From Clostridia bacterium (GTDB lineage Bacteria > Bacillota > Clostridia > Oscillospirales > Acutalibacteraceae), in contig JAFVSK010000006.1 in NCBI GenBank assembly GCA_017503785.1, positions 62,001-126,000 of the forward strand: DNA of 64,000 bases. The letters are read 5' to 3'. Numbering within the stretch: position 1 is the first letter of the stretch; each line of letters begins with the position of its first letter. Positions 21,089-47,456 of the stretch are shown here, piece by piece. The notes below the pieces were generated by a model, which made no database searches, was not told where the DNA came from, and saw only the letters and a program-made list of their open reading frames with translations. A program made the translations under genes and the position numbers.

Positions 21089-21104
21089 ACCGTTAACATC
21101 CTTT

Positions 21105-21340: not shown

Positions 21341-21341
21341 T

Positions 21342-23031: not shown

Positions 23032-23040
23032 AATCACACA

Positions 23041-26725: not shown

Positions 26726-26734
26726 AGTAACCTC

Positions 26735-27490: not shown

Positions 27491-27494
27491 GGTG

Positions 27495-28376: not shown

Positions 28377-28386
28377 AACGTACTCC

Positions 28387-29805: not shown

Positions 29806-29848
29806 TTTTCTCATCCCTTCTACGGGCTGACAGCCCTATACAGAATAT

Positions 29849-29877
29849 AGTATAGCAGAGTTTGTCGACAGCTTCAA
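29849..29877 (-). promoter_or_regulatory. Promoter of the thyX operon
   Basis: TTGAAG (29877-29872), 17 bp, TATACT (29854-29849) on the minus strand. Confidence 0.65.
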
Positions 29878-29905
29878 GGCTAAACCAACTTTTTTCTGAA
29901 TTTTT

Positions 29906-29934
29906 TTGCTTTTTATCAAACGATGTGGTACACT
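29906..29934 (+). promoter_or_regulatory. Promoter of the VTT-domain gene
   Basis: TTGCTT (29906-29911), 17 bp, TACACT (29929-29934), before an AAGGAGG site. Confidence 0.55.
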
Positions 29935-29966
29935 ATATAAGAAGTAATTTGTAAGGAGGCACCGCC

Positions 29967-30668
29967 ATGAGCCGACAACCATCATCCATAACGCGACGGC
30001 GTGTGCTGGCACTGTGCTCGCTCGCGGCGGTGCTGGCGCTGTTTACGTGGCTCACGGTATTTTTGTGGAAACGCTTTGCCGCCTTTGGCGACGATCCTGC
30101 CGCCTTTAAAGCCTTCGTGGAGGGCTACGGCTGGAAGAGCCGCCTGGTGGCGTTGGGCATCCAGATGCTGCAGGTGGTGGTATCGTTCGTGCCCGGCGAG
30201 GTGGTCGAGGTGGGCATGGGCTACGCGTTTGGTGCCATTGAGGGCACGCTGCTGTGCTTGGCCGGTGTGGCGCTGGCTTCGGTGCCGATCTTTTTGCTGG
30301 TAAAGTCGGTGGGCGTGAAGGCGGTGGAGCTGTTTATCAGCCGCGATAAGATCGACAGCCTGCGCTTTATCAACAGCGAAAAACGGCTGAAGCGCTTGGT
30401 GTTTTTGCTGTATTTCATTCCCGGCACCCCCAAGGATCTGTTTACGTATTTCGTGGGTCTCACCCGCCTGCGGCTGCACGAGTTTTTAGTGATCACTCTC
30501 ATCGCCCGTATTCCGTCGGTGATCTCCTCCACTGTGGGCGGCAACCTCATTCAAAAGGAAAATTATATCGGTGCGGTGCTGTTGTTCGTGGTGACGGGAG
30601 CGGTCAGTTTGGGCGGTATGGTGCTATATAATCGCTTGAAAGAACGCAAAAGTCGTTCGAAACCGTAA
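29967..30668 (+). CDS. TVP38/TMEM64 (VTT-domain) membrane protein
   Basis: 233 residues, about five or six hydrophobic segments, with the VTT signature VPGEVVEVGMGYAFGAIEGT and the later FLLYFIPGTPKDLFTYFVGLTRL. DedA/VTT proteins act in lipid transport or membrane homeostasis; some flip undecaprenyl phosphate or phospholipids. The precise role of this branch is unknown. AAGGAGG precedes the ATG. Single-gene unit divergent from thyX. Confidence 0.9.
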   Translation: MSRQPSSITRRRVLALCSLAAVLALFTWLTVFLWKRFAAFGDDPAAFKAFVEGYGWKSRLVALGIQMLQVVVSFVPGEVVEVGMGYAFGAIEGTLLCLAGVALASVPIFLLVKSVGVKAVELFISRDKIDSLRFINSEKRLKRLVFLLYFIPGTPKDLFTYFVGLTRLRLHEFLVITLIARIPSVISSTVGGNLIQKENYIGAVLLFVVTGAVSLGGMVLYNRLKERKSRSKP

Positions 30669-31163
30669 ATTCTTTTGGCGATCCGTACAATTTTTAGGTT
30701 TTTACAACAATTTGTAACACATAATTTTTATTCACATTCTGTGAGTTTGTGAATTGTTTTGTGAAATCATGTGGAAAAATGTGAATAACTATGTTGACAA
30801 CTGTTTGCAGCAAGCGGTTGCAAATTGTGTTTCCAATCCAATCCAATCGTAATCCAATCTTATTTTGAATCCGAATCCAACTGCAAAGCGGCTGTGGAAA
30901 ACTTTTCACAGTTGGTGGAGAAATCCACCGTGTACATCGCTTATAAATATAAAAAAGCAGGAAATGGGTCATTTTGAGCGTAGGGCGAAGCTTGGAGTTG
31001 AAGAAGCTTTTCGTAGCAGCGCTGTATTTGGGTTGTGCGACCGTAGGGAAAGATACCCACACATTGGTACAAGCCTTGGCGGGACGATGTGGGCATCGTC
31101 CCCTACGGCGTTGTATTAATGCGAGAAAGATGACTGTTTGATAACTGTTTTACCTAACAAAAA
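30669..31163. other. Non-coding region with phased TGTGRA repeats, AATCCA repeats and a dispersed palindrome
   Basis: No credible gene. 30728-30788 holds five TGTGRN units at 30740, 30748, 30760, 30770 and 30780, the last three exactly 10 bp apart, including DnaA-box-like 9-mers (TTATTCACA at 30728-30736 plus and 30788-30780 minus; TTTTCCACA at 30778-30770 minus and again at 30901-30893). 30833-30880 holds several AATCCA units. 31076-31108 is a dispersed repeat. The part between is featureless. Confidence 0.6.
31076..31108 (+). repeat. 33-bp dispersed palindromic repeat, copy 2
   Basis: Hairpin GGGACGATG - TGGG - CATCGTCCC; copy 1 at 5567-5599 has GGGACGGTG and CACCGTCCC, a compensating base pair. 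CCGTAGGG at 31041-31048 is the inverse of its CCCTACGG end. Confidence 0.75.
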
Positions 31164-31197
31164 ACACCGAAAACCCGCGTGGCTTCGGTGTTTTTTT
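31164..31197. terminator. Intrinsic terminator
   Basis: ACACCGAA / TTCGGTGT stem with a 12-nt loop, A5 before and T7 after. It ends the minus-strand radical-SAM/HAD gene and shields it from the left. Confidence 0.85.
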
Positions 31198-31231
31198 ATT
31201 TGGTTGGGTGTCTTGAAGGTGACTACCTATC

Positions 31232-33547
31232 TTATGCTATAATGAGGGCACGCAATTCCTCCACCGTGGCGGCGATCGCATCGGCTCCGGAAGCGGTAAG
31301 CTCCTCCCTGCTGCCGTAGCCGTACAGCACGCCCACGGTAGCCATTCCCAAGCGACGGCCGCCCTCTACGTCGAAGCAGCGGTCACCGATCATGACGGCT
31401 TCGGTAGGATCGTGCAGGCCCTCGCGCTCCATGGCGCTGAGGATCACGGCGGTTTTGTCGGCGCGCTTCTCCCCCATGTCTGCCCCCGCAATGCAGGTAA
31501 AATGCTGTGTAAGGCCGAAATGCTGCATCAAGCGGCAGGCGTACATTTCGGGCTTGGAAGTGGCCATAATGACGTGATAGCCGGCACGGCGGGCATCGTG
31601 CAGCAGCTCGGGAATGCCTGCGTAGACCTCGTTTTCATAAATGCCGGTGACGGCGTAGTATTCGCGATAGGCGGCCAGCGCTTCGCGGGATTGCTCGGCG
31701 GTCATGCCGTAGAACTCGCAAAACGAATCCAGCAGCGGCGGGCCGATGAAGCGCTGCAGCTTGGTGAGATCGGGCTCGTCGATGCCGAAGCGACGCAGCG
31801 CAAACTGCACCGAGCGAGTGATGCCGAGCGCCGGATCGGTGAGCGTGCCGTCGAGATCGAACAGCAGATATTGCCGCTTACGTCCCAGCTGCTCCTCACG
31901 GAAATAGCGCACGGGATACAGCCTTGTTACCGGATGCGGTGCGGTGTGATCGGCATACAGCAGCGTACCGTCGGAAAGCAAGGCGGTGCCGCGGCGCACG
32001 CCCTCGGGGCGGCGCAGGCGGACATCGGTGTCCAGCAGGCGCTTTAGGCGGCGGCGCTCGTCGGCGTGTTCATCCAGACACGGCGGCAGCACCCCTGCAG
32101 GGTTGCCGGCCATACGATCGTGCAGCAGCGCATCGCGCAAAGCCGCTTTATCGGTGCGCGGCGCATACAGCTCCCACAGCAGCACCGTCAGCTCATCGAG
32201 CGAGGGCGGCGTTTCGGGAAGCTGCGCCCCCACCTCGGAAAACACCGCCACGGGGTCCAGCCCCACGGTGTCGGTGAGATAGGCCAGCGTGTGCGGAAAG
32301 CGGCCGCTGTTATACAAACGGTCCAGTGCCTCCTCCAGCACGTGCAGACGGTGCAGATCGTCCTCGGACAGCCACGGCGTTCGGCGCACCTCATACGGCG
32401 GCTGCGCGGCGAACACGCCGGGATAGCGCGCCGGGTCCTCGGCCAGGGGCGATCCGTGCAGGCGCTTTAAGAAGCCCAGCTGCAGCTGATGCGGCCGCAG
32501 TGCGTAGGCCGTGCGGAAGCTGTGCAGGCAGGTGGGCAGATCCTCCTCGGGCAGGCCGGCAATGAGATCGAGATGCACCGCCACGGTGTTGCATGCCAGC
32601 AGATGGCGAATGTTCTGCGTAAGGCGCGCGGTATCGGTGCGGCGACACACCGCCGCCAGTGTTTCGGCGTGAAAGGATTGCAGGCCGATCTCCAGCTGGA
32701 ACAGCCCTGCCGGTGCTTCGCACAGCACGGTGAGCATCTCTTCGTCCAGCAGATCGCCTGCGATCTCAAAATGGAAGCACACCCCCTTAGGGATGCGCGT
32801 GCCGTAGTTTTCCACGATAAAGCGCCAGATGCGCAGCGCGCGCTGTTTATCGGCGTTAAAGGTGCGGTCGACGAATTTCACGGTAGCCGTGCCGCTGTTT
32901 GCCAGCTGCAAAATCTCCGCAAAGGCGCGCTCCTCGGGATAGAACCGCACGGTACCGCACCGTCCCGACAGGCAAAACGCGCACGAGAACGGACACCCGC
33001 GCGAGGTTTCAAGATAGGCCATACGGCCGCCGAGGGCTTCAAAATATTCCGGCACGTAGGGACTGGGCGGGATCTCGTTGGTAACGTAGGGCTCGGCCAC
33101 GTGCTCACGCGTGCAGACACCGGGCAGCCCAACCACCGACTCCCCTGCCGCGCAGGCGGTGAGATAGGCCGCCAGCGGCCGCTCGCCCTCGCCGGCGATC
33201 ACGCAGTCCACAAACGGATACCGTGCCAGCAGCTCGGCCGCACGGTAGCTGACCTCGGGGCCGCCCAGCACGATGCGCACCATCGGTGCTGCCGCCTTCA
33301 GCCGTTCGGCCAAGCGCAGTACCGTGGTGATATTCCAAATATAACAGCTGAAGCACACCGCCTCGGCTGCTTGTGCCGTTAAGCGTGTGAACAGTGCGTC
33401 GTCGCTTTCGTTCACCGTTCCCTCCACCACGCGTGCCTCGACACCGCTGCCGTAGGTGCGAATACCGCTGAGCAGACACCACGGCGCCAGCGCTGAGTGT
33501 ATGTAGCGGGAATGAATGCCGACCAGCGACACCTGAAAAGTATGCAT
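31232..33547 (-). CDS. Fusion: B12-binding-type radical SAM protein + HAD phosphatase
   Basis: 771 residues in one open frame. Residues 1-170 are a cobalamin-binding-like Rossmann domain (VRIVLGGPEVSYRAAELL). The radical SAM core follows with Cys185, Cys189 and Cys192 (SRGCPFSCAFC), and a DUF4080-like C-terminal part to about 550. From about 560 a complete phosphoglycolate-phosphatase-like HAD domain begins: LFDLDGTLTD with nucleophile Asp564, then MATSKPEMYA and VMIGDRCFDVEGG. The radical SAM reaction of this DUF4080-type family is unknown to me. The start at 33547 has GAGGTG seven bases before; ATG 33568 precedes that site. Linker residues show no stop or frameshift. Confidence 0.88.
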   Translation of the reverse strand: MHTFQVSLVGIHSRYIHSALAPWCLLSGIRTYGSGVEARVVEGTVNESDDALFTRLTAQAAEAVCFSCYIWNITTVLRLAERLKAAAPMVRIVLGGPEVSYRAAELLARYPFVDCVIAGEGERPLAAYLTACAAGESVVGLPGVCTREHVAEPYVTNEIPPSPYVPEYFEALGGRMAYLETSRGCPFSCAFCLSGRCGTVRFYPEERAFAEILQLANSGTATVKFVDRTFNADKQRALRIWRFIVENYGTRIPKGVCFHFEIAGDLLDEEMLTVLCEAPAGLFQLEIGLQSFHAETLAAVCRRTDTARLTQNIRHLLACNTVAVHLDLIAGLPEEDLPTCLHSFRTAYALRPHQLQLGFLKRLHGSPLAEDPARYPGVFAAQPPYEVRRTPWLSEDDLHRLHVLEEALDRLYNSGRFPHTLAYLTDTVGLDPVAVFSEVGAQLPETPPSLDELTVLLWELYAPRTDKAALRDALLHDRMAGNPAGVLPPCLDEHADERRRLKRLLDTDVRLRRPEGVRRGTALLSDGTLLYADHTAPHPVTRLYPVRYFREEQLGRKRQYLLFDLDGTLTDPALGITRSVQFALRRFGIDEPDLTKLQRFIGPPLLDSFCEFYGMTAEQSREALAAYREYYAVTGIYENEVYAGIPELLHDARRAGYHVIMATSKPEMYACRLMQHFGLTQHFTCIAGADMGEKRADKTAVILSAMEREGLHDPTEAVMIGDRCFDVEGGRRLGMATVGVLYGYGSREELTASGADAIAATVEELRALIIA

Positions 33548-33701: not shown

Positions 33702-33730
33702 TTGACAATGCTTTATATAATGTGTATAAT
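33702..33730 (+). promoter_or_regulatory. Consensus promoter of the arginine cluster
   Basis: TTGACA (33702-33707), exactly 17 bp, TATAAT (33725-33730): a perfect sigma-A promoter, consistent with strong expression held in check by a repressor. Confidence 0.88.
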
Positions 33731-33736
33731 GTGTGC

Positions 33737-33767
33737 ATATTCGATGAATACGATGAATATTTATTCT
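33737..33767 (+). promoter_or_regulatory. ARG-box-like sites 2 and 3
   Basis: ATATTCGATGAATA (33737-33750) and TGAATATTTATTCT (33754-33767) lie tandem over the predicted start point and leader of argG. The last is nearly identical to the ArgR/AhrC consensus. No argR gene is in the window. Confidence 0.6.
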
Positions 33768-33782
33768 AGGAGGATGCATACC

Positions 33783-35000
33783 ATGAACAAGGAAAATATC
33801 AAGAAAGTCGTACTCGCCTATTCGGGTGGTCTGGACACGTCCATCATCATTCCGTGGCTGAAGGAAAACTACAACAACTGCGAGGTTATCGCGGTGTCGG
33901 GCAACGTGGGTCAGGCCGACGAGCTGGAGGGCCTTGAGGAAAAGGCGCTCAAGACCGGCGCTTCCAAGCTGTACGTGCTCGACCTCACCGAGGAGTACGT
34001 TGACGAGTACATTATCCCCTGCCTGAAGGCGGGCGCCGTTTACGAGGAGTACCTGCTGGGCACCAGCCACGCACGTCCCTGCATTGCCAAGGGCTTGGTC
34101 GATATCGCCATCAAGGAAGGCGCCGACGCCATCTGCCACGGCTGTACCGGTAAGGGTAACGACCAGGTGCGTTTTGAGCTGGCTATCAAGCACTTTGCTC
34201 CCAGCATGCCCATCATTGCTCCGTGGCGTGAGTGGGATATCAAGTCCCGCGAAGAGGAGATCGAGTACGCCGAGGCGCACAACATCCCGCTGAAGATCAA
34301 CCGCGAGACCAACTACTCCAAGGATAAGAACCTGTGGCATCTGTCCCACGAGGGCATGGATCTGGAAGATACCGGCAACGAGCCGCAGTACGAAAAGGAA
34401 GGCTTCTTGGAGATGGGCGTGTCCCCCATTCAGGCTCCCGATAAGCCCACCTACATTACGCTCGACTTCGAGCAGGGCGTGCCCGTAGCGCTCGACGGCG
34501 AGAAGATGACCGCGAAGCAGATCGTGCTCAAGCTCAACGAGCTGGGCGGCGCAAACGGTATCGGTATCATCGACATTGTGGAAAACCGCTTGGTCGGTAT
34601 GAAATGCCGCGGCGTGTACGAAACTCCCGGCGGTACCATTCTGTACAAGGCGCACAGCGTGCTGGAAAGCATCTGCCTCGACAAGATGACCCTGCACGAG
34701 AAGCAGCGCATGGCCATCACCTTTGCCGAGCTGGTGTACAACGGCCAGTGGTTCACTCCCCTGCGCGAGGCGATGAGCGCGTTTGTTGACAAAACGCAGG
34801 AGCGCGTAACCGGTAAGGTGCGCCTGAAGCTGTACAAGGGCAACCTCATCAACGCCGGTGTGTGGAGCCCCTACACGCTGTACAGCGAAGAGATCGCTAC
34901 CTTCGGCGAGAGCGATTACAACCAGAAGGATGCCGAGGGCTTTATCAACCTGTACGGTCTGCCGATCACGGTTCAGGCCTTGGTTGACGGTAAGAAATAA
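33783..35000 (+). CDS. argG: Argininosuccinate synthase
   Basis: 405 residues. The ATP-pyrophosphatase P-loop [18 protein letters not shown] is at the N-terminus; [14 protein letters not shown] and NREFNYS-like [14 protein letters not shown] segments follow. It joins citrulline and aspartate using ATP. ATG 33783 is placed by AGGAGG at 33770; the frame is open further upstream but includes the promoter. First gene of the arginine cluster, separated from argH by a hairpin at 35015. Confidence 0.98.
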
Positions 35001-35083: not shown

Positions 35084-36460
35084 ATGGCTAAGTTATGGGC
35101 GGGCAGAACCGACGGTGCTACCGACAAGCTCGCAGACGATTTTAATTCGTCCATTCGGTTCGATCACGTAATGTATCGGCAGGATATCACCGGCAGCATG
35201 GCACACGCCGCCATGCTGGGTGCACAGGGCATTATTACGCAAGCGGAGGCCGCACAGCTCATCGACGGACTTCAGAACATTCTGAACGATCTCGACAGCG
35301 GCGCGCTGGCGTTCGATATGTCGTGCGAGGATATCCACATGTTTGTGGAGCAGGTGCTCACCGAGCGCTTGGGCGCCGTGGGCAAAAAGCTGCACACCGC
35401 CCGCAGCCGTAACGATCAGGTGGCACTGGATCTGCGCATGTACCTGCGCGAAGAGATCGACACCGTGGTGGCGTTTGTGAACGAGCTGCTCGCAGCCGTG
35501 ACCGAACAGGCCGAGCAAAACAAGGCGGCCATTCTGCCCGGCTACACGCATTTGCAGCGTGCACAGCCCGTTACCTTCGGGCATCATCTCATGGCCTACG
35601 CCATGATGCTGCTGCGCGACCGCGAGCGGTTGCTGGATTGCCGCCGCCGCATGAATCAGTCGCCCATCGGCTGCTGTGCGCTGGCCGGCACCACCTACAA
35701 CACCGATCGTCGCTTCGAGGCGGCACAGCTGGGCTTCGACGGCATCTGCCGCAACAGCCTGGACGGCGTGTCCGACCGCGACTTCTGCGTGGAGCTGCTG
35801 AGCGCGTTGTCGATCTTGATGATGCATCTCTCCCGCTTTTCGGAGGAGGTCATTCTGTGGTCGAGCTGGGAATTTAAGTTTGTGGAGCTGTCGGATGCGT
35901 TTACCACCGGCTCCTCCATTATGCCGCAAAAGAAAAACCCCGACATGGCCGAGCTTGTGCGCGGCAAAACGGGCCGCGTGTACGGCGATCTAATGGCGGC
36001 GCTCACCATGCTCAAAGGCCTGCCGCTCGCCTACAACAAGGATATGCAAGAGGATAAAGAGGGCGTGTTCGATGCGCTGGAAACCGTGAAAATGTGCTTG
36101 CCGGTGTTTGCCGGTATGATCCGCACCATGCGCACCCTGCCCGATAACATGCGCCGCGCCGCGCAAAACGGCTTTATCAACGCCACCGACTTGGCCGACT
36201 GGATGGTGGCGCACGGCCTGCCGTTCCGCGATGCGTATAAGATCTCGGGTCAGCTGGTGGCTCGCTGCATCGCCGAGGGGCTGGTGCTGGAATCGCTGCC
36301 GCTGGAGGTCTACCGCGAGTACAGCGAGTTGTTTGACGAAACCGTGTTCGAGGCCATCGACCTCGACGCGTGTGTGGAGCGGCGTATCAGCGAGGGCGGC
36401 ACGTCCGTGCCCTCGGTGGAAGCCCAGATTGCTTATGTGAAAGAGATGTTGAGCGTATGA
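35084..36460 (+). CDS. argH: Argininosuccinate lyase
   Basis: 458 residues of the fumarase/aspartase superfamily, with the signature GSSIMPQKKNPD and conserved TARSRNDQVALDLRMYL and GYTHLQRAQPVTFGHH. It splits argininosuccinate into arginine and fumarate, the last step of the pathway. GGAG precedes the ATG. Its last bases overlap argC (ATGA). Confidence 0.98.
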   Translation: MAKLWAGRTDGATDKLADDFNSSIRFDHVMYRQDITGSMAHAAMLGAQGIITQAEAAQLIDGLQNILNDLDSGALAFDMSCEDIHMFVEQVLTERLGAVGKKLHTARSRNDQVALDLRMYLREEIDTVVAFVNELLAAVTEQAEQNKAAILPGYTHLQRAQPVTFGHHLMAYAMMLLRDRERLLDCRRRMNQSPIGCCALAGTTYNTDRRFEAAQLGFDGICRNSLDGVSDRDFCVELLSALSILMMHLSRFSEEVILWSSWEFKFVELSDAFTTGSSIMPQKKNPDMAELVRGKTGRVYGDLMAALTMLKGLPLAYNKDMQEDKEGVFDALETVKMCLPVFAGMIRTMRTLPDNMRRAAQNGFINATDLADWMVAHGLPFRDAYKISGQLVARCIAEGLVLESLPLEVYREYSELFDETVFEAIDLDACVERRISEGGTSVPSVEAQIAYVKEMLSV

Positions 36461-37377
36461 AAACAGTATTTATCGACGGCAGCGCCGGTACCACCGGTCT
36501 GCGCATCCACGAACGGTTGGCCGATCGCCGCGATTTAACGGTGCTCACCCTGCCCGATGAGCTGCGCAAAGACCCCGCCGCCCGCGCCGAGGCATTGCAC
36601 AAGGCCGACGTTGCCTTTCTGTGCCTGCCCGACGACGCGGCGCGCGAATCGGTGGCGCTGGCGGAAAACAGCAACGTGGTGATCATCGACACCTCCACCG
36701 CCCACCGCACCGCCGCAGGCTGGACCTACGGCTTCCCCGAGCTGGGCTACCGCGAAGCCATTGCCGCTTCCAAGCGCATTGCCAACCCCGGCTGCCACGC
36801 CAGCGGCTTTTTGGCACTGGTGGCACCGCTGGTAAAGGCCGGCCTGCTCGCCCCCGATACGGCGCTCACCGCGTTTTCGCTCACCGGGTATTCCGGCGGC
36901 GGCAAGAAGATGATCGCCGAATACGAAGACCCCGCCCGCGACGTGCTGTTTGAAGCGCCCCGTCAGTACGGATTAACGCAAAAGCACAAGCATCTGCCCG
37001 AAATGGCCGCCGTGGCCGGACTCACGCAGGCACCCGTGTTCTGCCCCATCGTGGCACCGTATTACGCGGGCATGGAGGTTACCGTGCCGCTGTTCGCCGC
37101 ACAGGTAAAGGGCTCTGCAGCCGACATTGCAAACGTGTATCGCGCCTGCTTTGCAAACGGCTTGGTGCGCTTTTGCGACAATAACAGCGAAGGCGGTCTG
37201 TTGTCGGCCGGTGCGTTTGCCGGACGTGACGATATGGAGGTTACGGTGCAGGGCAACGACGAACGCATCCTGCTGGTGGCCCGCTTTGATAACCTGGGTA
37301 AGGGCGCTTCGGGTGCGGCCATTCAAAACATGAACATTGTGCTCGGTGTCGACGAGGCTGCCGGGCTGTGCGTATAA
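36457..37377 (+). CDS. argC: N-acetyl-gamma-glutamyl-phosphate reductase, type 2
   Basis: 306 residues, the shorter type 2 form. The Rossmann motif IDGSAGTTGLRIHERL is at the N-terminus; the catalytic Cys113 is in ANPGCHASGFLA. It reduces acetylglutamyl phosphate with NADPH. A longer frame to 36370 lies inside argH; the ATGA overlap start is chosen by its position and the canonical MKTVFIDGSAG opening. Confidence 0.95.
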   Translation: MKTVFIDGSAGTTGLRIHERLADRRDLTVLTLPDELRKDPAARAEALHKADVAFLCLPDDAARESVALAENSNVVIIDTSTAHRTAAGWTYGFPELGYREAIAASKRIANPGCHASGFLALVAPLVKAGLLAPDTALTAFSLTGYSGGGKKMIAEYEDPARDVLFEAPRQYGLTQKHKHLPEMAAVAGLTQAPVFCPIVAPYYAGMEVTVPLFAAQVKGSAADIANVYRACFANGLVRFCDNNSEGGLLSAGAFAGRDDMEVTVQGNDERILLVARFDNLGKGASGAAIQNMNIVLGVDEAAGLCV

Positions 37378-37392
37378 AGTGAGGGACAAACT

Positions 37393-38610
37393 ATGGTAGA
37401 ACTGATCAAAGGCGGCGTGTGTGCCGCCAAGGGCTTTAAAGCCAACGGTATTCATTGCGGTATCCGCCACAATCGCTTAAAGCGCGATCTGGCGCTCATT
37501 TACAGCGAGGTGCCCGCTTCGGCAGCCGCCGTGTACACCACCAATCTGGTGAAGGGTGCACCGCTGTCGGTCACCAAAAAGCACCTGCAAAACGGCGTGG
37601 CGCAGGCGGTTATTTGCAACAGCGGCAACGCCAACACCTGCAACGCCGACGGTATTGAGGTGGCCGAGCAGATGGGTCGTATGGTGGCCGAGGTGCTGCC
37701 TGTGGCTGCCGAGGACGTGATCGTGGCTTCCACCGGCGTGATCGGTCAGCCGCTTGACCTCACTCCCATTGCAGGCGGCCTGCCCACTTTGGCAGAGGGT
37801 ATCTCCTACGAGGGCGGCGAGGCTGCCGCCGAGGCCATCATGACCACCGACACCTTCAAAAAGGAAGTGGCGGTGTCGTTCTCGGTGGGCGGCAAGACCT
37901 GCCGTTTGGGTGGTATTGCCAAGGGCAGCGGTATGATCCACCCCAACATGGCAACCATGCTGGTGTTCCTCACCACCGATGCGGCGATCGCTCCGTCGAT
38001 GCTGCAGAAGGCGCTGTCGAGCGATATTCAGAACACGTTTAACATGGTGAGCATCGACGGCGACACCTCCACCAACGATATGGTGGCCATTCTGGCCAAC
38101 GGTGTGGCGGGCAACACCCCCATTACCGAGGAGGGCGAGGATTTTGCCGAGTTCATGAAAGCGCTGAACACCGTAACGGTGGAGCTGTGCCGCCTGATCG
38201 CCGCCGACGGCGAGGGTGCTACCAAGCTGCTGGAGTGCCACGTGAGCGGCGCCCCCGACAAGGCTACCGCCAAAACCGTGGCCAAGAGCGTGATCTGCTC
38301 CAGCCTGCTCAAGGCGGCCATGTTCGGTGCCGATGCCAACTGGGGTCGCGTGCTGTGCGCCATCGGCTACAGCGGCGCGGCGGTGGACGTTTCCAAGGTT
38401 GGTGTGGCGTTCCGTTCGGCAAAGGGTATCGTTCCCGTGTGCGAAAACGGCGCGGGCATTCCCTTCTCGGAGGAAGTGGCCAAGGAAATTCTGCTGGAAA
38501 AGGAAATTGATATTCTCATCACGCTGGACAGCGGCTCGGAAAGCGCTACCGCGTGGGGCTGTGATCTCACCTACGATTACGTGAAGATCAACGGCGATTA
38601 TCGGACGTGA
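37393..38610 (+). CDS. argJ: Bifunctional ornithine acetyltransferase / N-acetylglutamate synthase
   Basis: 405 residues. The self-cleavage site is Ala-Thr188 in GMIHPNMATMLVFL, which yields alpha and beta chains with Thr188 as N-terminal nucleophile. It transfers acetyl groups from acetylornithine to glutamate, so the cluster runs the cyclic pathway; many ArgJ proteins also use acetyl-CoA. GAGG lies before the ATG. Confidence 0.97.
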   Translation: MVELIKGGVCAAKGFKANGIHCGIRHNRLKRDLALIYSEVPASAAAVYTTNLVKGAPLSVTKKHLQNGVAQAVICNSGNANTCNADGIEVAEQMGRMVAEVLPVAAEDVIVASTGVIGQPLDLTPIAGGLPTLAEGISYEGGEAAAEAIMTTDTFKKEVAVSFSVGGKTCRLGGIAKGSGMIHPNMATMLVFLTTDAAIAPSMLQKALSSDIQNTFNMVSIDGDTSTNDMVAILANGVAGNTPITEEGEDFAEFMKALNTVTVELCRLIAADGEGATKLLECHVSGAPDKATAKTVAKSVICSSLLKAAMFGADANWGRVLCAIGYSGAAVDVSKVGVAFRSAKGIVPVCENGAGIPFSEEVAKEILLEKEIDILITLDSGSESATAWGCDLTYDYVKINGDYRT

Positions 38611-38620
38611 GGTGACAAGA

Positions 38621-39490
38621 ATGGACGCTTTATTTTCAAACGCACAGCGCGCTGAGGTGCTCACTCAGGCGCTCCCCTACATTAAGCAATATAACGGCAA
38701 GATCGTCGTGGTAAAATACGGCGGCAACGCCATGATCAACGAGCAGCTTAAACAGCAGGTCATGGAAGACGTGGTGCTGCTGTGGCTTATCGGTGTCAAA
38801 GTGGTGCTGGTGCACGGCGGCGGCCCCGAGATCAGTGAGCTGATGGCAAAGCTCGGCAAAAAGCCCGAGTTTGTGGACGGCTTGCGCGTGACCGATAAGG
38901 AAACCGTGGATATCGTGCAAATGGTGCTCGCCGGTAAGGTGAACAAAACGCTGGTGAATCTGCTGGAAAAGCAGGGCGGCAAGGCCATGGGCATCTCGGG
39001 TATGGACGGCATGCTCATCGAGGCCGAAATGAAGGACGAACGCCTCGGCTACGTGGGCAAGGTCACCAAGGTGCACATTCAGCCGGTGCTCGACCTGCTG
39101 GAAAAGGGCTACATTCCCGTCATCTCCACGCTGGGCTGCGACCGCGAGGGCAACGCCTACAACATCAACGGCGACACGGCCGCCGCCTACATTGCGGGCG
39201 CGCTGAATGCCGAGCGTTTGGTGATGATGACCGATATTGCCGGTCTGCTCAAGGATAAAGACGATCCCTCCACCCTCATTCCCGAGGTGACCATCTCGGA
39301 GGCCAAGGCGCTGTGCGCTGAGGGCGTGGTGTCGGGCGGCATGATCCCCAAGGTGGACTGCTGCATCGAAGCCATCCACAAGGGCGTGGAAAACGTGGTT
39401 ATCATGGACGGTCGTGTTCCCCACTCTATCCTGATGGAAATTCTCACCAACGAGGGTGCCGGTACGCTGGTAAAGGGGGATCCCCAATGA
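38621..39490 (+). CDS. argB: N-acetylglutamate kinase
   Basis: 289 residues of the amino-acid kinase family: KIVVVKYGGNAMIN, VVLVHGGGPEISELM, and LMITDIAG-type VMMTDIAGLLKDKDDPSTLI. The N-terminal helix before the kinase fold (LFSNAQRAEVLTQALPYIKQY) is the feature of arginine-inhibited hexameric enzymes, so feedback control by arginine is likely. GAGGTG at 38609 selects ATG 38621 over the overlapping GTG at 38612. Overlaps argD by ATGA. Confidence 0.97.
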   Translation: MDALFSNAQRAEVLTQALPYIKQYNGKIVVVKYGGNAMINEQLKQQVMEDVVLLWLIGVKVVLVHGGGPEISELMAKLGKKPEFVDGLRVTDKETVDIVQMVLAGKVNKTLVNLLEKQGGKAMGISGMDGMLIEAEMKDERLGYVGKVTKVHIQPVLDLLEKGYIPVISTLGCDREGNAYNINGDTAAAYIAGALNAERLVMMTDIAGLLKDKDDPSTLIPEVTISEAKALCAEGVVSGGMIPKVDCCIEAIHKGVENVVIMDGRVPHSILMEILTNEGAGTLVKGDPQ

Positions 39491-40656
39491 GCACATTAAT
39501 GGAACGTGATCAGGCGGTGGTAGCGAACACCTACCGCCGTTTCCCCGTTGAAGTAACGCACGGCAAGGGCTCGCTGTTGTGGGATACCGACGGCAAGCGC
39601 TATATTGATATGGGCTCGGGCATTGGTGTTACGGCGTTCGGCATTGCCGACGATGCCTGGCAAGCGGCCGTAACGGCGCAGCTGGCGCAGGTGCAGCACA
39701 CCTCCAATCTGTATTACACCGAGCCGTGCGTGGCACTGGCTGAGCGCTTGTGCGCGCGCACCGGTATGAGCCGCGTGTTTTTCGGCAACTCCGGTGCCGA
39801 GGCCAACGAATGTGCCGTTAAGGTGGCCCGCAAATACGCCGCCGAGCACAAGGGCCCCGAATACAACGTGATCGTCACGCTGGAAAACAGCTTTCACGGC
39901 CGCACGCTCACCACGCTGGCGGCTACCGGGCAGGAGCATTTTCACGAGCTGTTTCAGCCGTTAACTCCCGGCTTCTGCCACACTCCCGCCAACGATATTG
40001 AGGCGTTGGAGGCGCTGGTGGCCGAGCAAAAGGTGGCCGGTATTCTGCTGGAATGTGTGCAGGGCGAGGGCGGCGTGAACTCCCTCACCAAGGCCTACGT
40101 TACCGCCGTGGCCGCCTTGTGCGAACGCGAGGATATTGTGCTGATGATCGACGAGGTGCAAACCGGCAACGGCCGCACCGGTCGGTTGTTCTCTTACGAA
40201 TACTACCGTATTCAGCCCGACGTGGTCACCACCGCCAAGGGCTTGGGCGGCGGTCTGCCGCTGGGCGCGGTGCTGCTGAGCGATAAGGTGAAGGACGTGC
40301 TCGGCTTCGGCGATCACGGCTCCACCTTTGGCGGCAATCCCGTGTGCTGTGCGGGTGCGGTGAACGTGCTCGACCGTCTTGACGATGACTTTTTGGCCGA
40401 GGTACGCCGCAAGAGCGTTTACGTTTTCAACGAGCTTATCAAGGCCGAGGGTGTGCGCTCCGTGACGGGTATGGGCCTCATGGTGGGCATTGAAACCGTG
40501 CGCCCCGCCGCCGACGTGGTGGCCGCCTGCCGCGAAAACGGCGTGCTGTGCCTCACCGCCAAGCATAAGGTGCGCTTGCTGCCTGCGCTGAATATTCCGT
40601 GGGACGTGCTGAAAGAAGCCGTTACCGTGCTAAAGAACGCCTGCAAGGAGGGCTGA
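39487..40656 (+). CDS. argD: Acetylornithine aminotransferase
   Basis: 389-residue class III PLP-dependent aminotransferase. The cofactor-binding run is VLMIDEVQTGNGRTG followed by the Schiff-base lysine in VTTAKGLGGGLPLGA; FFGNSGAEANECAVKVARKY is the PLP-phosphate region. It makes acetylornithine from acetylglutamate semialdehyde, and may also serve in lysine synthesis as succinyl-DAP aminotransferase in some bacteria. Confidence 0.96.
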   Translation: MSTLMERDQAVVANTYRRFPVEVTHGKGSLLWDTDGKRYIDMGSGIGVTAFGIADDAWQAAVTAQLAQVQHTSNLYYTEPCVALAERLCARTGMSRVFFGNSGAEANECAVKVARKYAAEHKGPEYNVIVTLENSFHGRTLTTLAATGQEHFHELFQPLTPGFCHTPANDIEALEALVAEQKVAGILLECVQGEGGVNSLTKAYVTAVAALCEREDIVLMIDEVQTGNGRTGRLFSYEYYRIQPDVVTTAKGLGGGLPLGAVLLSDKVKDVLGFGDHGSTFGGNPVCCAGAVNVLDRLDDDFLAEVRRKSVYVFNELIKAEGVRSVTGMGLMVGIETVRPAADVVAACRENGVLCLTAKHKVRLLPALNIPWDVLKEAVTVLKNACKEG

Positions 40657-40659: not shown

Positions 40660-41646
40660 ATGTCGCTGAAAAACAAGCATTTTTTGAAGCTGCTCGACCT
40701 TACTTCCGAGGAGATCAACGGTCTGCTCACGCTGGCCGCCGAATTGAAAGCCAAAAAGAAGGCGGGTGTTCCCCACCGCTTATGTGAGGGTAAGAACATT
40801 GCGCTGATCTTCGAAAAAACCAGCACCCGCACCCGCTGCGCGTTTGAGGTGGCGGCGGTAGACTTGGGCATGCATCCCACCTACCTCGACCCCTCCGGCT
40901 CGCAGATCGGCAAAAAGGAAAGCATTGCCGACACCGCCCGCGTGCTGGGCCGTATGTTCGACGGTATCGAATACCGCGGCTTCGGCCAGGAGATCGTGGA
41001 GGAACTGGCCGCCTATGCCGGTGTGCCGGTGTGGAACGGTCTTACCAACGAGTTTCATCCCACCCAGATCTTGGCCGATTTTCTGACCATCCAGGAGCAT
41101 TTCGGCGAGCTGAAGGGCAAAAAGCTGGTGTACATGGGCGATGCTCGCTACAACATGGGCAATTCGCTGATGGTGGGCTGTGCCAAAATGGGCATGCACT
41201 TTGTGGCCTGCGCGCCGAAGAAATATTTCCCCGATGCCGCGCTTATTGCGCAGTGTGAGGCTGTGGCCAAGGAAACCGGCGCGGTGCTGGAATTTGAAGA
41301 GGACCCGATGAAGGCCACCAAGGGTGCCCACGTGATCTACACCGACGTGTGGGTTTCCATGGGTGAGCCCGATGCCGTGTGGCAGGAGCGCATTGAGGAG
41401 CTTTCGCCCTACCGCGTCACCAAGGCGCTGATAGACAACGCCGGCAAGCAATGCCGCTTCATGCATTGTCTGCCCGCTTTCCACGATCTTAAAACCACCG
41501 TGGGCAAGCAGATCTACGACAAATTCGGACTGACCTGCATGGAAGTCACCGACGAGGTGTTCGAAAGCGAGCAGTCCATTGTGTTCGACGAGGCCGAAAA
41601 CCGCATGCACACCATCAAAGCGGTAATGGCGGCAACGTTGGCCTAA
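40660..41646 (+). CDS. argF: Ornithine carbamoyltransferase
   Basis: 328 residues with the carbamoyl-phosphate motif [13 protein letters not shown] and the ornithine-side loop [10 protein letters not shown], plus [12 protein letters not shown]. It forms citrulline from ornithine and carbamoyl phosphate. Three bases after argD stop, with GGAGG. Carbamoyl phosphate would be supplied by the next two genes. Confidence 0.97.
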
Positions 41647-41704: not shown

Positions 41705-42742
41705 ATGGCCTTTTTGATATTGGAAAACGGCACCGTGTTTGAGGGACAGCGCTTCGGCGCCCTCGGTGACACCGTGGGTGAAGTGGTGTTTACCACCGGT
41801 ATGGTGGGCTACCCCGAAACGCTGACCGACCCCGCCTATGCGGGGCAGCTGGTGGTGCAAACGTTCCCCATGGTGGGCAACTACGGCATCATTCCCGAGG
41901 ATATCGCCCCCACCGCCGCCCCCTGCGGTTATATCGTGCGCGAATACTGCGAGCAGCCCTCCAACTTCCGCTGCGAACAAACGCTGGATGCGTTTTTAAA
42001 GCAGCAGGGCGTGGTGGGCCTTTGCGGCATCGACACGCGCGAGCTCACCACCGTGTTGCGTGAACACGGCACCATGAACGCCATGATCTGCGACACTGTC
42101 CCCGATGATCTCACCGTTCTGCGTGAGTACACCGTGGGCCGTCGCGTGGCCGACGTCAGCTGCACGGAAAGCCGTGTCTACCCTGCTGTGGGCGAGAAAC
42201 GCTATGCCATAACGCTGGTGGATCTCGGCACGTCGCTCACCCTCGTTCACGCCTTGTGTGAACATGGCTGCGAGGTAACGGTGGTCCCGCACGACACCTC
42301 TGCTTCCGCAATCAAGCACCAACAGCCCGACGGCGTGGTGTTCGCAGGAGGCCCCGGTGATCCGCGCGACTGCACGGAATATCTGCCGGTTATTCGTGAG
42401 CTCTTCGGCAAGCTGCCGATGCTGGGTGTCGGCTTGGGGCATCAGCTGATCGCGCTGTCGCAGGACGGTGCGGTGGAAAAGCTGCCCTACGGCCATCGCG
42501 GCGCCAATCAGCCTGTAAAAATTGCAGGCACCTCGCGCCGCACCTACATTACCAACCAAAATCACGGCTACGTGGTGTCGGAGATCCCCGAGGGCGCGCT
42601 GCCGTGGTTCCGCAACGCAAACGATAACACCTGCGAGGGGATCTACTACACCACCCACTACTGCGTGACGGTGCAGTTTGATCCAAACGATGTGGTGTTC
42701 GACCGCTTTTTCGCTTTGATGGGAGGTGCCGACCATGCCTAA
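41705..42742 (+). CDS. carA: Carbamoyl-phosphate synthase small subunit homologue with inactivated glutaminase triad
   Basis: 345 residues, against about 360-380 in the family. The N-terminal CarA domain is normal (GEVVFTTGMVGYPETLTDP, GLCGIDTRELTTVLREHG). In the class I amidotransferase domain the nucleophile elbow reads GVGLGHQ: the catalytic Cys is Gly243. The His-x-Glu pair of HPE reads DPN: Asp326 and Asn328. The usual SPGPHD stretch after it is deleted. QNHGY and GGPGDP remain. It should not hydrolyse glutamine; it may serve as a structural subunit for ammonia-dependent synthesis (inference). Codons are clean, with no frameshift. Overlaps carB by eight bases. Confidence 0.9.
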   Translation: MAFLILENGTVFEGQRFGALGDTVGEVVFTTGMVGYPETLTDPAYAGQLVVQTFPMVGNYGIIPEDIAPTAAPCGYIVREYCEQPSNFRCEQTLDAFLKQQGVVGLCGIDTRELTTVLREHGTMNAMICDTVPDDLTVLREYTVGRRVADVSCTESRVYPAVGEKRYAITLVDLGTSLTLVHALCEHGCEVTVVPHDTSASAIKHQQPDGVVFAGGPGDPRDCTEYLPVIRELFGKLPMLGVGLGHQLIALSQDGAVEKLPYGHRGANQPVKIAGTSRRTYITNQNHGYVVSEIPEGALPWFRNANDNTCEGIYYTTHYCVTVQFDPNDVVFDRFFALMGGADHA

Positions 42743-45700
42743 AGATACCACCATTCGCAAGGTGCTGATGATCGGCTCGGGCCCCATCACCATCGGTCAG
42801 GCCGCCGAGTTCGACTATGCCGGTGCTCAAGCCTGCCGCGTGCTGCGCGAGGAAGGCATTAACGTGGTGCTGGTGAACTCCAATCCTGCCACCATTATGA
42901 CAGATAAGAGCCTCGCCGATGAGATCTATCTGGAGCCGCTGAACGCCGAAACCGTGCGGCGCATCATTGAAAAAGAACGGCCCGACGGGTTGCTCGCCGG
43001 CTTGGGCGGGCAAACGGGCCTGACCATTGCCATGCAGCTCTCGCGCGACGGCACGCTGGAAAAATACGGCGTGCGCCTGCTCGGCTCCGATATTAACGCC
43101 ATTGAAAAGGCCGAAGACCGCGAACTGTTCCGTAACGCCATGAACGAGATCGGTCAGCCAATGGTACCCTCCGACATTGCCGAGGACGTGGATACCGCGC
43201 TGGCCATTGCGGCACGCATCGGTTATCCGGTTATCGTGCGCCCTGCCTTCACACTGGGCGGCTCGGGCGGCGGTATTGCCGCCACCGAAGCCGAGCTGCG
43301 CGAAATTGCGCGCGGCGGCTTGGATGCCTCCCCCATTACGCAGGTGCTGGTGGAAAAGTGCATTGCAGGCTGGAAAGAAATTGAGTTTGAAACCATGCGC
43401 GATGCCGGCGGCAACGCCATTGCGGTGTGCTCGATGGAAAACGTCGACCCGGTCGGCGTGCACACGGGCGACTCCGTGGTGGTGGCGCCCGCGCTCACGC
43501 TGTCGGTGAAAGAATACAGCATGCTGCGGCAAGCCGCGCTGGATATTGTGAACACCATCGGGATCGTGGGCGGCTGCAACTGCCAGTTTGCGCTGGATCC
43601 CAACAGCTTTGACTATGCCGTTATTGAAGTCAATCCGCGTGTGTCGCGCTCATCGGCGCTGGCCTCCAAGGCCTCGGGCTATCCCATTGCCAAGCTCACC
43701 ACGCGGTTGGCACTCGGCTATCGGTTAGACGAAATTAAAAACGATATCACCGGCAAGACCTGCGCCTGCTTCGAGCCGGCACTCGACTACGTGGTGGTAA
43801 AATTCCCCAAATGGCCGTTCGATAAATTTGCCGGCTCCAGCCGCTTGCTGGGCACGCAAATGAAGGCCACGGGCGAAGTAATGTCCATTGGCCAGAGCTT
43901 TGAAGAAGCCTTAATGAAGGCGGTGCGCGGTGCTGAGATCTCGCTGGACACGCTGAACGCTCCCCCGCTCACCGAAGCATCCGTGCGTGAACGCCTGCAC
44001 GAGCAAAACGACCGTCGGTTGTTCACGATATTTGAGGCGCTGAAAAGCGGTGTCACGGTGGACGAGATCTACGCGATCACCAAGATCGACCGCTGGTTCC
44101 TGCACAAGCTGGCCCGCATGGCGGCCTTTGAGCAGCATCTGCAGGCCGAGGGCTTGTGTGAGGGCGATTACATGGCGGCGAAACGCATGGGGTATCCCGA
44201 TGCCGCCATTCGCCGTCTGAGCGGTGCCGACACGCTGCCCGACTTTGCGCTTTCGTATAAGATGGTGGACACCTGCGCCGCCGAATACCGCGCCAAAACG
44301 CCGTATTTCTACTCCTGCGCCGATACGGTGTGCGAGTCGCGTCGCTTTGAGCGCAGCGGGCGCCCCGTGGTGATGGTGCTGGGCTCCGGCCCCATTCGTA
44401 TCGGCCAAGGCATCGAATTCGACTACAGCTCGGTGCACTGCGTGTGGACCCTGCAAAAGCTGGGCTACGACGTGGTCATCGTGAACAACAACCCCGAAAC
44501 CGTGTCCACCGACTACGACACCGCCGATCGCCTGTACTTTGAGCCGCTGTGCCCCGAGGACGTTATGAGCATCATCCGCGTGGAGCAGCCTATCGGTGTG
44601 GTGGTGGCCTTTGGCGGGCAAACCGCCATTAAGCTCACACAGTTCTTGGATAAAAACGGTATTCGCATTTTAGGCACCTCGGCCGACGGCATCGACATTG
44701 CCGAGGACCGCAGCCGCTTCGATGCGCTGCTGGAGGAGTTTGGTATTCGCCGTCCCAAGGGCTTGGGCGTGCGCACTGTAGAGGAAGCGGTGGCCGCTGC
44801 CGAAACGCTGGGCTATCCCGTGCTGCTGCGGCCGTCGTACGTGATCGGCGGCCAGAATATGACCATCTCCCGCACAAAAGAACGCACCGTGGAGTATATG
44901 AACACCATTCTGGCCGGCGGCATTGATAACCCCGTGCTGGTGGATAAGTATATGCCCGGCACCGAGCTGGAGGTAGACGTGATCTCCGACGGCGAGACCG
45001 TGCTCATCCCCGGTATTATGGAGCACATTGAACGCGCCGGCGTGCACAGCGGCGACTCCATTGCCGTGTATCCGCCGTATAACCTCAGCGATAAATTCCT
45101 GCGCAAGATCTGCGATTGCTCCGAAAAACTGGCGCTGGCGCTGGGCACCAAGGGCCTGGTGAACATTCAGTACCTCATTTACGAGGATGAATTGTACGTC
45201 ATTGAGGTCAATCCCCGCGCTTCGCGTACCATTCCGTATATCAGCAAGGTCACCAACGTTCCCATGGTGGACCTCGCCGCCCGCGTGATGCTGGGCGAAC
45301 GCTTGGCCGATCTGGGCTACGGCACGGGGCTGTATCGCACGCCGCCGTATTTCGCGGTAAAGGTGCCGGTATTCTCGTTTGAAAAGCTCACCGATGCCAA
45401 CTCCATGCTGGGCCCCGAAATGAAGTCCACAGGCGAGGTGCTGGGTCTTGGCCGCACGGTGGCCGAATCGCTGTTTAAGGGGCTGGCGGCTGCCGGACTA
45501 TCGGTGCCGTCGGTGCACGAGGGCGAAGCCGGTATGCTCATCAGCGTGGAGGAAAGCGATTATCCCGATTGCATTTCGCTGGCAAAGCACTTTTACGAGC
45601 TGGGGCTCACGCTGTACGCCACGGCCGGCACTGCCGCCGCCATTGCGGCGCTGGGCATCCCTGTAACGGCGGTGAAAAACGCCGCCGAAAGCAACGAGAT

Positions 45701-46766
45701 CACCACGCTGATGGAATCGGGCAAGCTGCACGGTATCGTGTATACCGGCGCGGTAAAGGATGCCACCGTGGGCGATTACATTGTGCTGCACCGCCGCGCG
45801 ATGCAGCTGGGTATCCCCTGCTTCACCTCGCTGGATACCGCCGATGCGCTGGCGCAAATTATGGAAAGCCGTTTCAACGGCCGCAACACCGAGCTGGTGA
45901 ACATTAACGCCATGCGCCAAACGCGCCAAACGCTGCAGTTCACCAAAATGCACTCCTGCGGCAACGATTATCTGTTTATTGAAAACTTCGACAACGGCAT
46001 CACCTGCCCCGAATCGCTGTGCGTAGATCTGTGTCGCCCGCACTACGGCGTGGGCGCCGACGGTATTGTGCTCATCGAGCGCTCCGACAAGGCGGATGCC
46101 AAAATGCGCACCTTTAACCGCGACGGCAGCGAAAGCCCCATGGCCGGCAACAATATCCGCTGTGTGGGTAAATATCTGTACGACAAGGGCTTCGTTGACC
46201 GCGAGGAGATCACCGTGGAAACTGCCAGCGGTGTGCACTGCTTGCAGCTGCTTTTGCGCGACGGCAAGGTCAGTTCGGTCACGGTGGATATGGGCACAGC
46301 CTCCCTGCGTGCCGCCGATCTGCCCGCCGCCGTGACGTGTGAGCGCATGATCGCCTATCCGCTCACCGTGGGCGACAATCGCTACACCGTTACCGGTGTG
46401 TCCATCGGCAATCCGCATTGCGTGGTGTTCTGCGATAACATCGACGCGCTGGATCTTTCCACGATCGGTCCCAAGTTTGAATACGCTGCGGTTTTCCCCG
46501 AGCGTGTGAACACCGAGTTCGTGCGCAGTGTGAATAAAACGACACTGCGTATGCGCGTGTGGGAGCGTGGCAACGGCGAAACGCTGGCCTGCGGCACGGG
46601 AGCGTGCGCAGCAGCGGTGGCGGCGGTGGAAAACGGCTTGTGCGACAAGGGCACCGATATTACCGTGAAGCTGCGCGGCGGCGATCTCACGGTGAACTAC
46701 ACCGACGAACGCGTGCTGCTCACCGGCCCTGCCGTGCTGGTGTACGAGGGTACGTGGGAATATTGA
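42735..46766 (+). CDS. carB-dapF: Fusion: carbamoyl-phosphate synthase large subunit + diaminopimelate epimerase
   Basis: 1343 residues in one frame. Residues 1-about 1065 are a full CarB: two ATP-grasp halves (VNPRVSRSSALASKASGYPIA in the first, VNPRASRTIPYISKVTNVP in the second) and the C-terminal allosteric domain (about 925-1060). From residue 1069 a complete DapF follows (275 residues) beginning FTKMHSCGNDYLF, with both active-site cysteines: Cys1143 in GNNIRC and Cys1286 in ACGTGACA. DapF makes meso-diaminopimelate for lysine and peptidoglycan. ATG 42735 follows GGGAGG and overlaps the carA stop. An internal ATG at 45912 has no good ribosome-binding site, so a separate DapF is not supported. 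Confidence 0.93.
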   Translation: MPKDTTIRKVLMIGSGPITIGQAAEFDYAGAQACRVLREEGINVVLVNSNPATIMTDKSLADEIYLEPLNAETVRRIIEKERPDGLLAGLGGQTGLTIAMQLSRDGTLEKYGVRLLGSDINAIEKAEDRELFRNAMNEIGQPMVPSDIAEDVDTALAIAARIGYPVIVRPAFTLGGSGGGIAATEAELREIARGGLDASPITQVLVEKCIAGWKEIEFETMRDAGGNAIAVCSMENVDPVGVHTGDSVVVAPALTLSVKEYSMLRQAALDIVNTIGIVGGCNCQFALDPNSFDYAVIEVNPRVSRSSALASKASGYPIAKLTTRLALGYRLDEIKNDITGKTCACFEPALDYVVVKFPKWPFDKFAGSSRLLGTQMKATGEVMSIGQSFEEALMKAVRGAEISLDTLNAPPLTEASVRERLHEQNDRRLFTIFEALKSGVTVDEIYAITKIDRWFLHKLARMAAFEQHLQAEGLCEGDYMAAKRMGYPDAAIRRLSGADTLPDFALSYKMVDTCAAEYRAKTPYFYSCADTVCESRRFERSGRPVVMVLGSGPIRIGQGIEFDYSSVHCVWTLQKLGYDVVIVNNNPETVSTDYDTADRLYFEPLCPEDVMSIIRVEQPIGVVVAFGGQTAIKLTQFLDKNGIRILGTSADGIDIAEDRSRFDALLEEFGIRRPKGLGVRTVEEAVAAAETLGYPVLLRPSYVIGGQNMTISRTKERTVEYMNTILAGGIDNPVLVDKYMPGTELEVDVISDGETVLIPGIMEHIERAGVHSGDSIAVYPPYNLSDKFLRKICDCSEKLALALGTKGLVNIQYLIYEDELYVIEVNPRASRTIPYISKVTNVPMVDLAARVMLGERLADLGYGTGLYRTPPYFAVKVPVFSFEKLTDANSMLGPEMKSTGEVLGLGRTVAESLFKGLAAAGLSVPSVHEGEAGMLISVEESDYPDCISLAKHFYELGLTLYATAGTAAAIAALGIPVTAVKNAAESNEITTLMESGKLHGIVYTGAVKDATVGDYIVLHRRAMQLGIPCFTSLDTADALAQIMESRFNGRNTELVNINAMRQTRQTLQFTKMHSCGNDYLFIENFDNGITCPESLCVDLCRPHYGVGADGIVLIERSDKADAKMRTFNRDGSESPMAGNNIRCVGKYLYDKGFVDREEITVETASGVHCLQLLLRDGKVSSVTVDMGTASLRAADLPAAVTCERMIAYPLTVGDNRYTVTGVSIGNPHCVVFCDNIDALDLSTIGPKFEYAAVFPERVNTEFVRSVNKTTLRMRVWERGNGETLACGTGACAAAVAAVENGLCDKGTDITVKLRGGDLTVNYTDERVLLTGPAVLVYEGTWEY

Positions 46767-46777: not shown

Positions 46778-46814
46778 AATGCAGCAGACGGTCTTACCGT
46801 CTGCTGCATTTTTT
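46778..46814. terminator. Bidirectional terminator after carB-dapF
   Basis: A 15-bp perfect stem AATGCAGCAGACGGT / ACCGTCTGCTGCATT with loop CTT, then T-rich on the plus side. The minus-strand gene's TAA (46796-46794) sits in and beside the loop. Confidence 0.9.
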
Positions 46815-47399
46815 CATTCTTCGAAAAATACCCGCACCACCGAAATATACCGCCACACCAACGGCGGTGATAATGATATCGGTCATGGTATCGCCCACGG
46901 GTGAGCCGCCGCTTGCCAGTGCTTGCGCTACGCGCTGCGCATCGCCGCCCACCACCAGATCGCTCACGTATTCAAACACCTCCCACAGGGCTGCCAGCCC
47001 CATGACGGAGAGAAATATCACAAGCAGCAGCACGCTTCGCCCCAGCACAGCCTCGTGGCGTGAAAGCAGCTCGGCGAGCATGGCGGCGGCCAGCACGCCG
47101 AACAGACCGTGCAAAAACAGATCCCACCACGGAATATGATAATAAAAGCCCAGTGCACTGCCGCAAAAACTGGCCAATACCACGTGCAACGCCACCGCGG
47201 CAAACATCGCCATCGACAACGATCGCGCGGTTATGCGTTCCAGAAGCAGCAGCACGGTAGGAATGAGCGCACACGCCGTCACCTGCAAAAAAACAAGCGG
47301 CGCGGCGGCTTCGGTCGTCAGCGCATATACAACGAGCGTAGCTGCGGCCAGCACAACGGTGATCACACTCACCCACTGCTTTTGTTTTACAACGTTCAT
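46794..47399 (-). CDS. Membrane protein, YjdF (DUF2238)-like
   Basis: 201 residues with about six hydrophobic segments. The motifs WWDLFLHGLFGVLAAAML, ALWEVFEYVSDLV and GDTMTDIIITAVGV resemble the YjdF/DUF2238 family of uncharacterised membrane proteins with conserved acidic and His residues. Function unknown. ATG 47399 is six bases from GAGGTG; GTG 47408 overlaps it. The last codons and stop lie within the terminator hairpin shared with carB-dapF. Confidence 0.7.
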   Translation of the reverse strand: MNVVKQKQWVSVITVVLAAATLVVYALTTEAAAPLVFLQVTACALIPTVLLLLERITARSLSMAMFAAVALHVVLASFCGSALGFYYHIPWWDLFLHGLFGVLAAAMLAELLSRHEAVLGRSVLLLVIFLSVMGLAALWEVFEYVSDLVVGGDAQRVAQALASGGSPVGDTMTDIIITAVGVAVYFGGAGIFRRMKKCSRR

Positions 47400-47456
47400 C
47401 GGTAACACCTCACTTCTTATTGTACACCGTCAAGAAGTGAAACATGTTACCAAAAT

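Follow-up and report, generated by a model that had tools for sequence, protein, structure and literature searches.

How is carbamoyl phosphate made where the CarA subunit encoded beside CarB has lost its glutaminase triad? This question is raised by a 64,000-nt stretch of DNA (the window) from a Clostridia bacterium of the Acutalibacteraceae (GCA_017503785.1, contig JAFVSK010000006.1, positions 62,001-126,000, forward strand). Its carA ORF (41705..42742, + strand) encodes a protein of 345 aa and runs for 371 aa from stop to stop without an internal stop. The protein contains the small-chain domain (PF00988, 165.3 bits) and the class-I GATase fold (PF00117, 115.8 bits), and its best matches among solved structures are E. 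coli CarA, then mitochondrial CPS1. It also passes the NCBIfam model TIGR01368 ('glutamine-hydrolyzing') with 323.5 bits against a cut-off of 307.35, and this model would name the dead CarA glutamine-hydrolyzing.

Alignment with E. coli CarA (from NC_000913.3, used as the reference for residue numbering) showed Gly243 (codon GGC, 42431..42433, + strand) in place of the catalytic Cys269, and Asp326-Pro-Asn328 (42680..42688, + strand) where E. coli has His353-Pro-Glu355, with some 8 residues missing after this site. The Cys-His-Glu triad is thus replaced by Gly, Asp and Asn, with Asn328 standing at Glu355 in this alignment and a gap in that column for the window in the alignment of 153 ORFs described below. 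The spacing between the two active-site segments is 83 residues, as expected, and neither the N-terminal domain nor the greater part of the GATase fold shows anything unusual. The first-pass annotation of this DNA had described the loss of the whole triad, the deleted segment after the HPE site, the spacing, the intact frame and the normal N-terminal domain, and the alignment and the PF00988 match bear it out on each of these. In addition, the position of Ser47, which we take to have a role in glutamine binding in E. coli CarA, is occupied by Ala46 (41840..41842, + strand). The window CarA is therefore predicted to be without glutaminase activity. A search against Rfam gave no match at the gathering threshold within the window.

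In the CarAs of five named MAGs (L039-L042, L052), position 269 is Gly and position 353 is Thr or Ala, and another 30 distinct CarA ORFs lack Cys, His or both, so that the loss of the triad cannot be put down to sequencing error or chance. Compared with its nearest relatives, the window CarA is 50-51% identical and its CarB about 80%. The loop after the HPE site is present in these relatives and deleted in the window, and a similar deletion occurs in L098.

The window carA follows an arginine cluster with the order argG-argH-argC-argJ-argB-argD-argF, then carA, then carB-dapF. The arg ORFs, annotated on the + strand, are all intact: argG (33702..35000), argH (35084..36460), argC (36370..37377, start uncertain), argJ (37393..38610), argB (38612..39490), argD (39487..40656) and, directly upstream of carA, argF (40660..41646), encoding the ornithine carbamoyltransferase that consumes carbamoyl phosphate. 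The end of carA is overlapped by the start of a carB-dapF fusion ORF (42726..46766, + strand, 1346 aa), in which residues ~1-1062 are CarB and the remainder DapF. Across both ATP-grasp halves of CarB, 19 of 20 checked positions, which we take to be catalytic, are as in E. coli; the exception, D207E, is common to 105 of the 107 CarB rows compared. In-frame CarB-DapF fusions occur at many loci of the family, beside intact (L043, L044 and others) as well as dead CarA, and the fusion is therefore not part of the trait. Around L039-L042 and L052, carB comes after carA, fused to dapF wherever the contig extends that far, and no arg gene was found in the DNA examined (10 kb on each side for L040); the link to arginine is thus clear for the window, not for its nearest relatives.

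Profile searches of the window genome recovered two CarBs (PF02787) and one CarA (PF00988), with no second carA found in the assembly. The second CarB is encoded on contig C31 of the window genome (G000) in the order pyrC-carB-pyrK-pyrD-pyrF-pyrE-pyrB, where pyrF, pyrE and pyrB were called by similarity to E. coli proteins and PF02729, and the pyrK match lies below the curated cut-offs. Among the catalytic positions, this CarB deviates from E. coli only by D207E, and no CarA profile match was found near its gene even at E<10. Since the one CarA is dead and the second CarB has no CarA, no CPS with a working glutaminase was found in the assembly. The first-pass annotation had proposed a search for a second, intact carAB; what the genome yielded was a second CarB, in a pyr operon, and no other carA. 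Such absences are not absolute in this MAG, because PF06418 (pyrG, CTP synthase) and PF00958 (guaA, GMP synthase C-terminal domain) likewise had no match in the assembly. Elsewhere in the genome, a GATase-like ORF (L006, contig C35) reads GIGRG at the usual nucleophile site, and a stretch of ~50 bases at window positions ~31056-31108 is also present on other contigs.

Within the family, a CarA profile search gave matches in 108 of 150 genomes. The triad was read in 153 distinct CarA ORFs, comprising E. coli, the window, the named records and loci from profile and pattern searches, after candidates below 120 bits and three duplicates were dropped; 111 were intact, 36 broken and 6 were fragments too short to judge. 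Position 269 is Gly in 30 of the broken CarAs (one of them, L188, itself cut short by a contig end) and Ser, as in human CPS1, in 3, and the other 3 keep Cys but without His. 35 of the 36 are followed by carB, the 36th being L188 at its contig end. Broken CarAs are found with arg genes or carB-dapF, and also beside pyrD. CarA was read in 106 genomes (2 of the 108 with matches fall outside this set): 14 had broken CarA only, 12 broken and intact, 76 intact only, and 4 were unjudgeable. CarB was found in 128 of the 150 genomes, 26 of them without a CarA match, and 40 of the 128 (26 + 14) thus show no intact CPS glutaminase, a count in which some absences will be assembly gaps, many of these genomes being MAGs. 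Several relatives come from animal guts, according to database records. A GxGLGHQ DNA pattern was discarded as a means of counting: it matched 103 of 398 family genomes, but only 3 of 30 loci (L073, L090, L091) were CarA. An order-wide profile search matched 328 of 394 genomes, and of 30 loci 29 were intact and one (L302, from another family) read Gly-Tyr-Glu; this search ranks intact CarA high, and tells little about breadth outside the family.

To follow the broken state through the family, it was placed on a CarB tree of 107 rows, where it required 16 changes, 13 of them forced by starred (well-supported) branches; a plain two-state count gave 15. A second tree, built without L054, L060, L064 and the seven pseudo-CPS rows described below, again gave 16 changes with 13 forced. 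Support in these trees is SH-aLRT only, changes were counted without direction, and CarBs shorter than 700 aa were left out of the trees and residue checks, so that 31 of the 36 broken CarAs had their CarB checked. A single loss of the triad is ruled out by the at least 13 changes on well-supported branches, and the changes are mostly losses, because regain of the full triad is hardly credible. The mapping onto relatives suggested by the first-pass annotation thus reveals recurrent loss. The window groups with L039, L040, L041 and L052 (98, starred), with the intact CarA of G065 (L146) next to this group (98, starred). Among the CarBs beside the 31 broken CarAs, 23 deviate only by D207E, one (L100) also by R675K, and 7 are broken too.

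Those seven form a pseudo-CPS clade with the order carA-carB-pyrD (L102, L105, L106, L107, L108, L109, L113). Catalytic residues are missing from both CarA and CarB, many of them in both CarB halves, while the ORFs are open and the two pairs tested gave dN/dS of 0.05-0.07. An MGS (allosteric) domain was detected in 3 of 3 CarBs scanned, and intact CarA also occurs in 5 of the 7 genomes. A regulatory role is possible.

Estimated by a simple counting method, with dS often near saturation, dN/dS was 0.08-0.26 for dead-CarA pairs (5 of 8 pairs, dS being saturated in the other 3) and 0.03-0.21 for intact-CarA pairs (6 of 9 estimable). Relative to CarB, dead CarA evolves faster than intact CarA, with mean ratios of 1.7-3.1 against 1.3-2.1 and the same direction in each of the four bins of CarB distance; this would also fit partial relaxation. 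Every intact row that has a residue at position 47 (110 rows) shows Ser, which is lost from 21 of the 29 dead rows outside the pseudo-CPS clade of 7, and position 240 is Asn in 110 of 111 intact rows versus 5 of 29 dead rows. In independent pairs, loss of Ser47 tracks loss of the triad in about 6 of 12 and never the reverse (median p 0.03). The residues at 353 and 355 in dead rows vary, with T, E, Y, N, D and others. A CarB change shared beside dead CarA was considered at I272 and Y547 and dropped, since independent pairs gave no significant result (median p 0.125 and 0.25). The dN/dS values, the 19 of 20 catalytic residues kept in the window CarB and the recurrence of the loss fit the earlier reading of selected loss rather than decay.

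Other lineages have no CarA at all. The pyr-operon CarB of the window genome falls in a clade of 22 CarA-free CarBs (100, starred), including that of G023, a 99% complete genome of the same genus. No CarA profile match at E<10 was found at 25 CarA-free loci, namely that of the window genome and those of 24 from the 26 family genomes with CarB but without a CarA match (G074 and G122 being left out); at L247, L259 and L260, carB reaches the contig end upstream, and CarA may be cut off there. A second, lone type (L270-L274, L277, L282; L273 lies near a contig end) is, in the DNA examined, part of neither a pyr nor an arg cluster, and has no CarA nearby and catalytic residues intact except D207E. 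At L258, carB directly follows argF in an arg cluster, without CarA. Counting the pyr type, the lone type and L258, CarA is absent from at least three separate lineages of CarB. A single clade for the pyr and lone types was rejected (AU p 2.5e-71, 66 chosen rows). ZMP/ZTP riboswitches lie near pyr genes at L236 (4967-5052) and L237 (1738-1832).

These lineages share a trace on CarB. Among 241 CarB columns conserved to at least 95% in 99 CarA-bearing rows, 5 are changed in the pyr type (26 rows) and 19 in the lone type (7 rows), and four of these, 265, 459, 535 and 567, are common to both types, against 0.39 expected (p 1.3e-4, columns treated as independent). L258 has the changes at 459 and 535 in common with both types (p 0.003 and 0.05). 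Only 2 of the 99 CarA-bearing rows (E. coli and L145) carry a change at these positions, at a single one in each case, and L247 retains all four, as expected if a CarA is present there. CarA sits against the carboxyphosphate and oligomerization domains of CarB (PMC6245113, in excerpt); three of the four columns lie in these domains, and from their domain position the four may be CarA contact residues. None of the 24 CarBs beside dead CarA is altered at these columns, and so the dead CarA probably still docks; the window CarB is unchanged at them as well, an indirect sign. The recurrence in the family, the loss of whole CarAs and the CarA-free pyr CarB (the strongest evidence) had been missed by the first-pass annotation.

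We consider it very probable that the locus encodes an ammonia-dependent CPS in an arg cluster, with the dead CarA kept as a structural partner. CarB would perform the chemistry, namely phosphorylation of bicarbonate, formation of carbamate with external NH3 and phosphorylation of carbamate. CarA, no longer hydrolysing glutamine, would be maintained by purifying selection in a structural or regulatory role, keeping CarB in its active shape, and carbamoyl phosphate for pyrimidines would come from the second, CarA-free CarB of the pyr operon. Ammonia as donor and the scaffold role of CarA, both read from sequence, had been put forward in the first-pass annotation, and the CarB residues, the lack of another carA in the assembly and the CarA-free pyr CarB fit this proposal. 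The further argument from gdhA and nfnAB is weak: gdhA (60004-61344, + strand) and an nfnB-type gene (9200-10594, - strand) are in the window, but these are common genes 13 kb and 31 kb away. E. coli CarB alone reportedly makes carbamoyl phosphate from NH3 in vivo (Rubino 1987, in the references of PMC6245113). Since the ammonia levels that E. coli CPS requires are very high and likely of no physiological relevance (PMC6245113, in excerpt), the proposal has to assume either an unseen adaptation or a habitat rich in ammonia.

Glutamine could still be the real donor if a separate glutaminase or amidotransferase supplied ammonia to CarB in trans. The genome does encode other GATase-fold proteins, one of which, with GICLG and HPE, is presumably HisH, and an ORF without assigned function (46794-47408) lies just beyond carB-dapF on the other strand. 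However, all same-strand neighbours of carB in the arg cluster and the pyr operon are assigned arg or pyr genes, the docking face seems still to be taken by dead CarA, and each of the at least three CarA-free lineages would need a new partner, which makes such a supply improbable. We regard as less likely still a decaying pathway, with CarA becoming a pseudogene and carbamoyl phosphate or arginine obtained from elsewhere. The intact argG-H-C-J-B-D-F ORFs, the intact CarB residues, a CarB about 80% identical to those of relatives in which the dead CarA likewise has an open frame, and dN/dS well below 1 where estimable all speak against decay, even though dead CarA evolves faster and the window CarA is matched in 0 of 8 other genomes of the genus.

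Use of a different nucleophile by CarA, to hydrolyse glutamine or another amide donor, would have a candidate in a Cys that the window, L039-L042 and L052 have in common, six residues ahead of the lost His. This Cys appears to lie along a strand, away from the pocket, Ser47 is lost too, and residues 353 and 355 vary from row to row as expected without constraint, leaving this a very slim prospect. An assembly or binning artefact is scarcely credible, although MAG contamination is 6.07% and two stretches of the genome are off in composition (GC 0.456 and 0.448), one being the first 20 kb of the same contig: the contig is 178 kb long, window positions 12000-31900 have kilobase-scale matches, with identities of up to 81%, in 8 of 8 other genomes of the genus, the composition of five further stretches of the genome is in line with that of the window, and the same triad loss occurs in the five named MAGs.

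Beyond an ammonia-dependent CPS at this locus, we think it likely that the family has repeatedly given up CPS glutaminase by two routes, either through a dead triad with CarA still docked as a scaffold or through deletion of CarA with re-adaptation of the CarB surface. The window genome carries one enzyme of each, the dead-CarA arg CPS and the CarA-free pyr CarB. If so, ATP-grasp CPSs committed to free ammonia would be seen here for the first time in bacteria, as a counterpart to CPS1. Glutamine is the physiological donor for E. coli CPS, a statement extended to all bacterial CPSases (PMC6245113, in excerpt), against which the 40 of 128 genomes without an intact CPS glutaminase stand. We found no report of a bacterial CPS lacking glutaminase function in the open-access literature, most subscription papers being outside the search, and Table 1 of PMC3376133 (in excerpt) has no CarB without glutaminase among 600 genomes. 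The family offers many natural replicates for studying what the glutaminase subunit contributes other than hydrolysis and how efficient use of ammonia by a CPS arises.

Among known systems, E. coli CarAB shares with the window its two-gene architecture and CarB residues, but has an intact triad and uses glutamine. Mitochondrial CPS1 resembles the window in keeping a glutaminase-like domain though inactive; in human CPS1, the catalytic Cys is replaced by Ser, only ammonia is used, and ammonia may enter by another path (PMC4655335, in excerpt). Unlike the window, with its separate carA and carB ORFs, CPS1 is eukaryotic, requires N-acetylglutamate and is one fused chain, the single polypeptide characteristic of CPS I, and the broken CarAs differ from the human enzyme in having Gly (30 of 36 rows) rather than Ser. 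The short, ammonia-dependent NadE is likewise a synthetase without glutaminase, and lineages differ in whether they have the glutamine or the ammonia form, but its glutaminase-free form is thought to be ancestral (PMC3376133, in excerpt). The anabolic carbamate kinase of Thermococcales, whose in vivo role is treated as unsettled (PMC13260591, in excerpt), makes carbamoyl phosphate from ammonia without glutamine (PMC6022934, in excerpt), as proposed for the window CPS, but with an unrelated fold.
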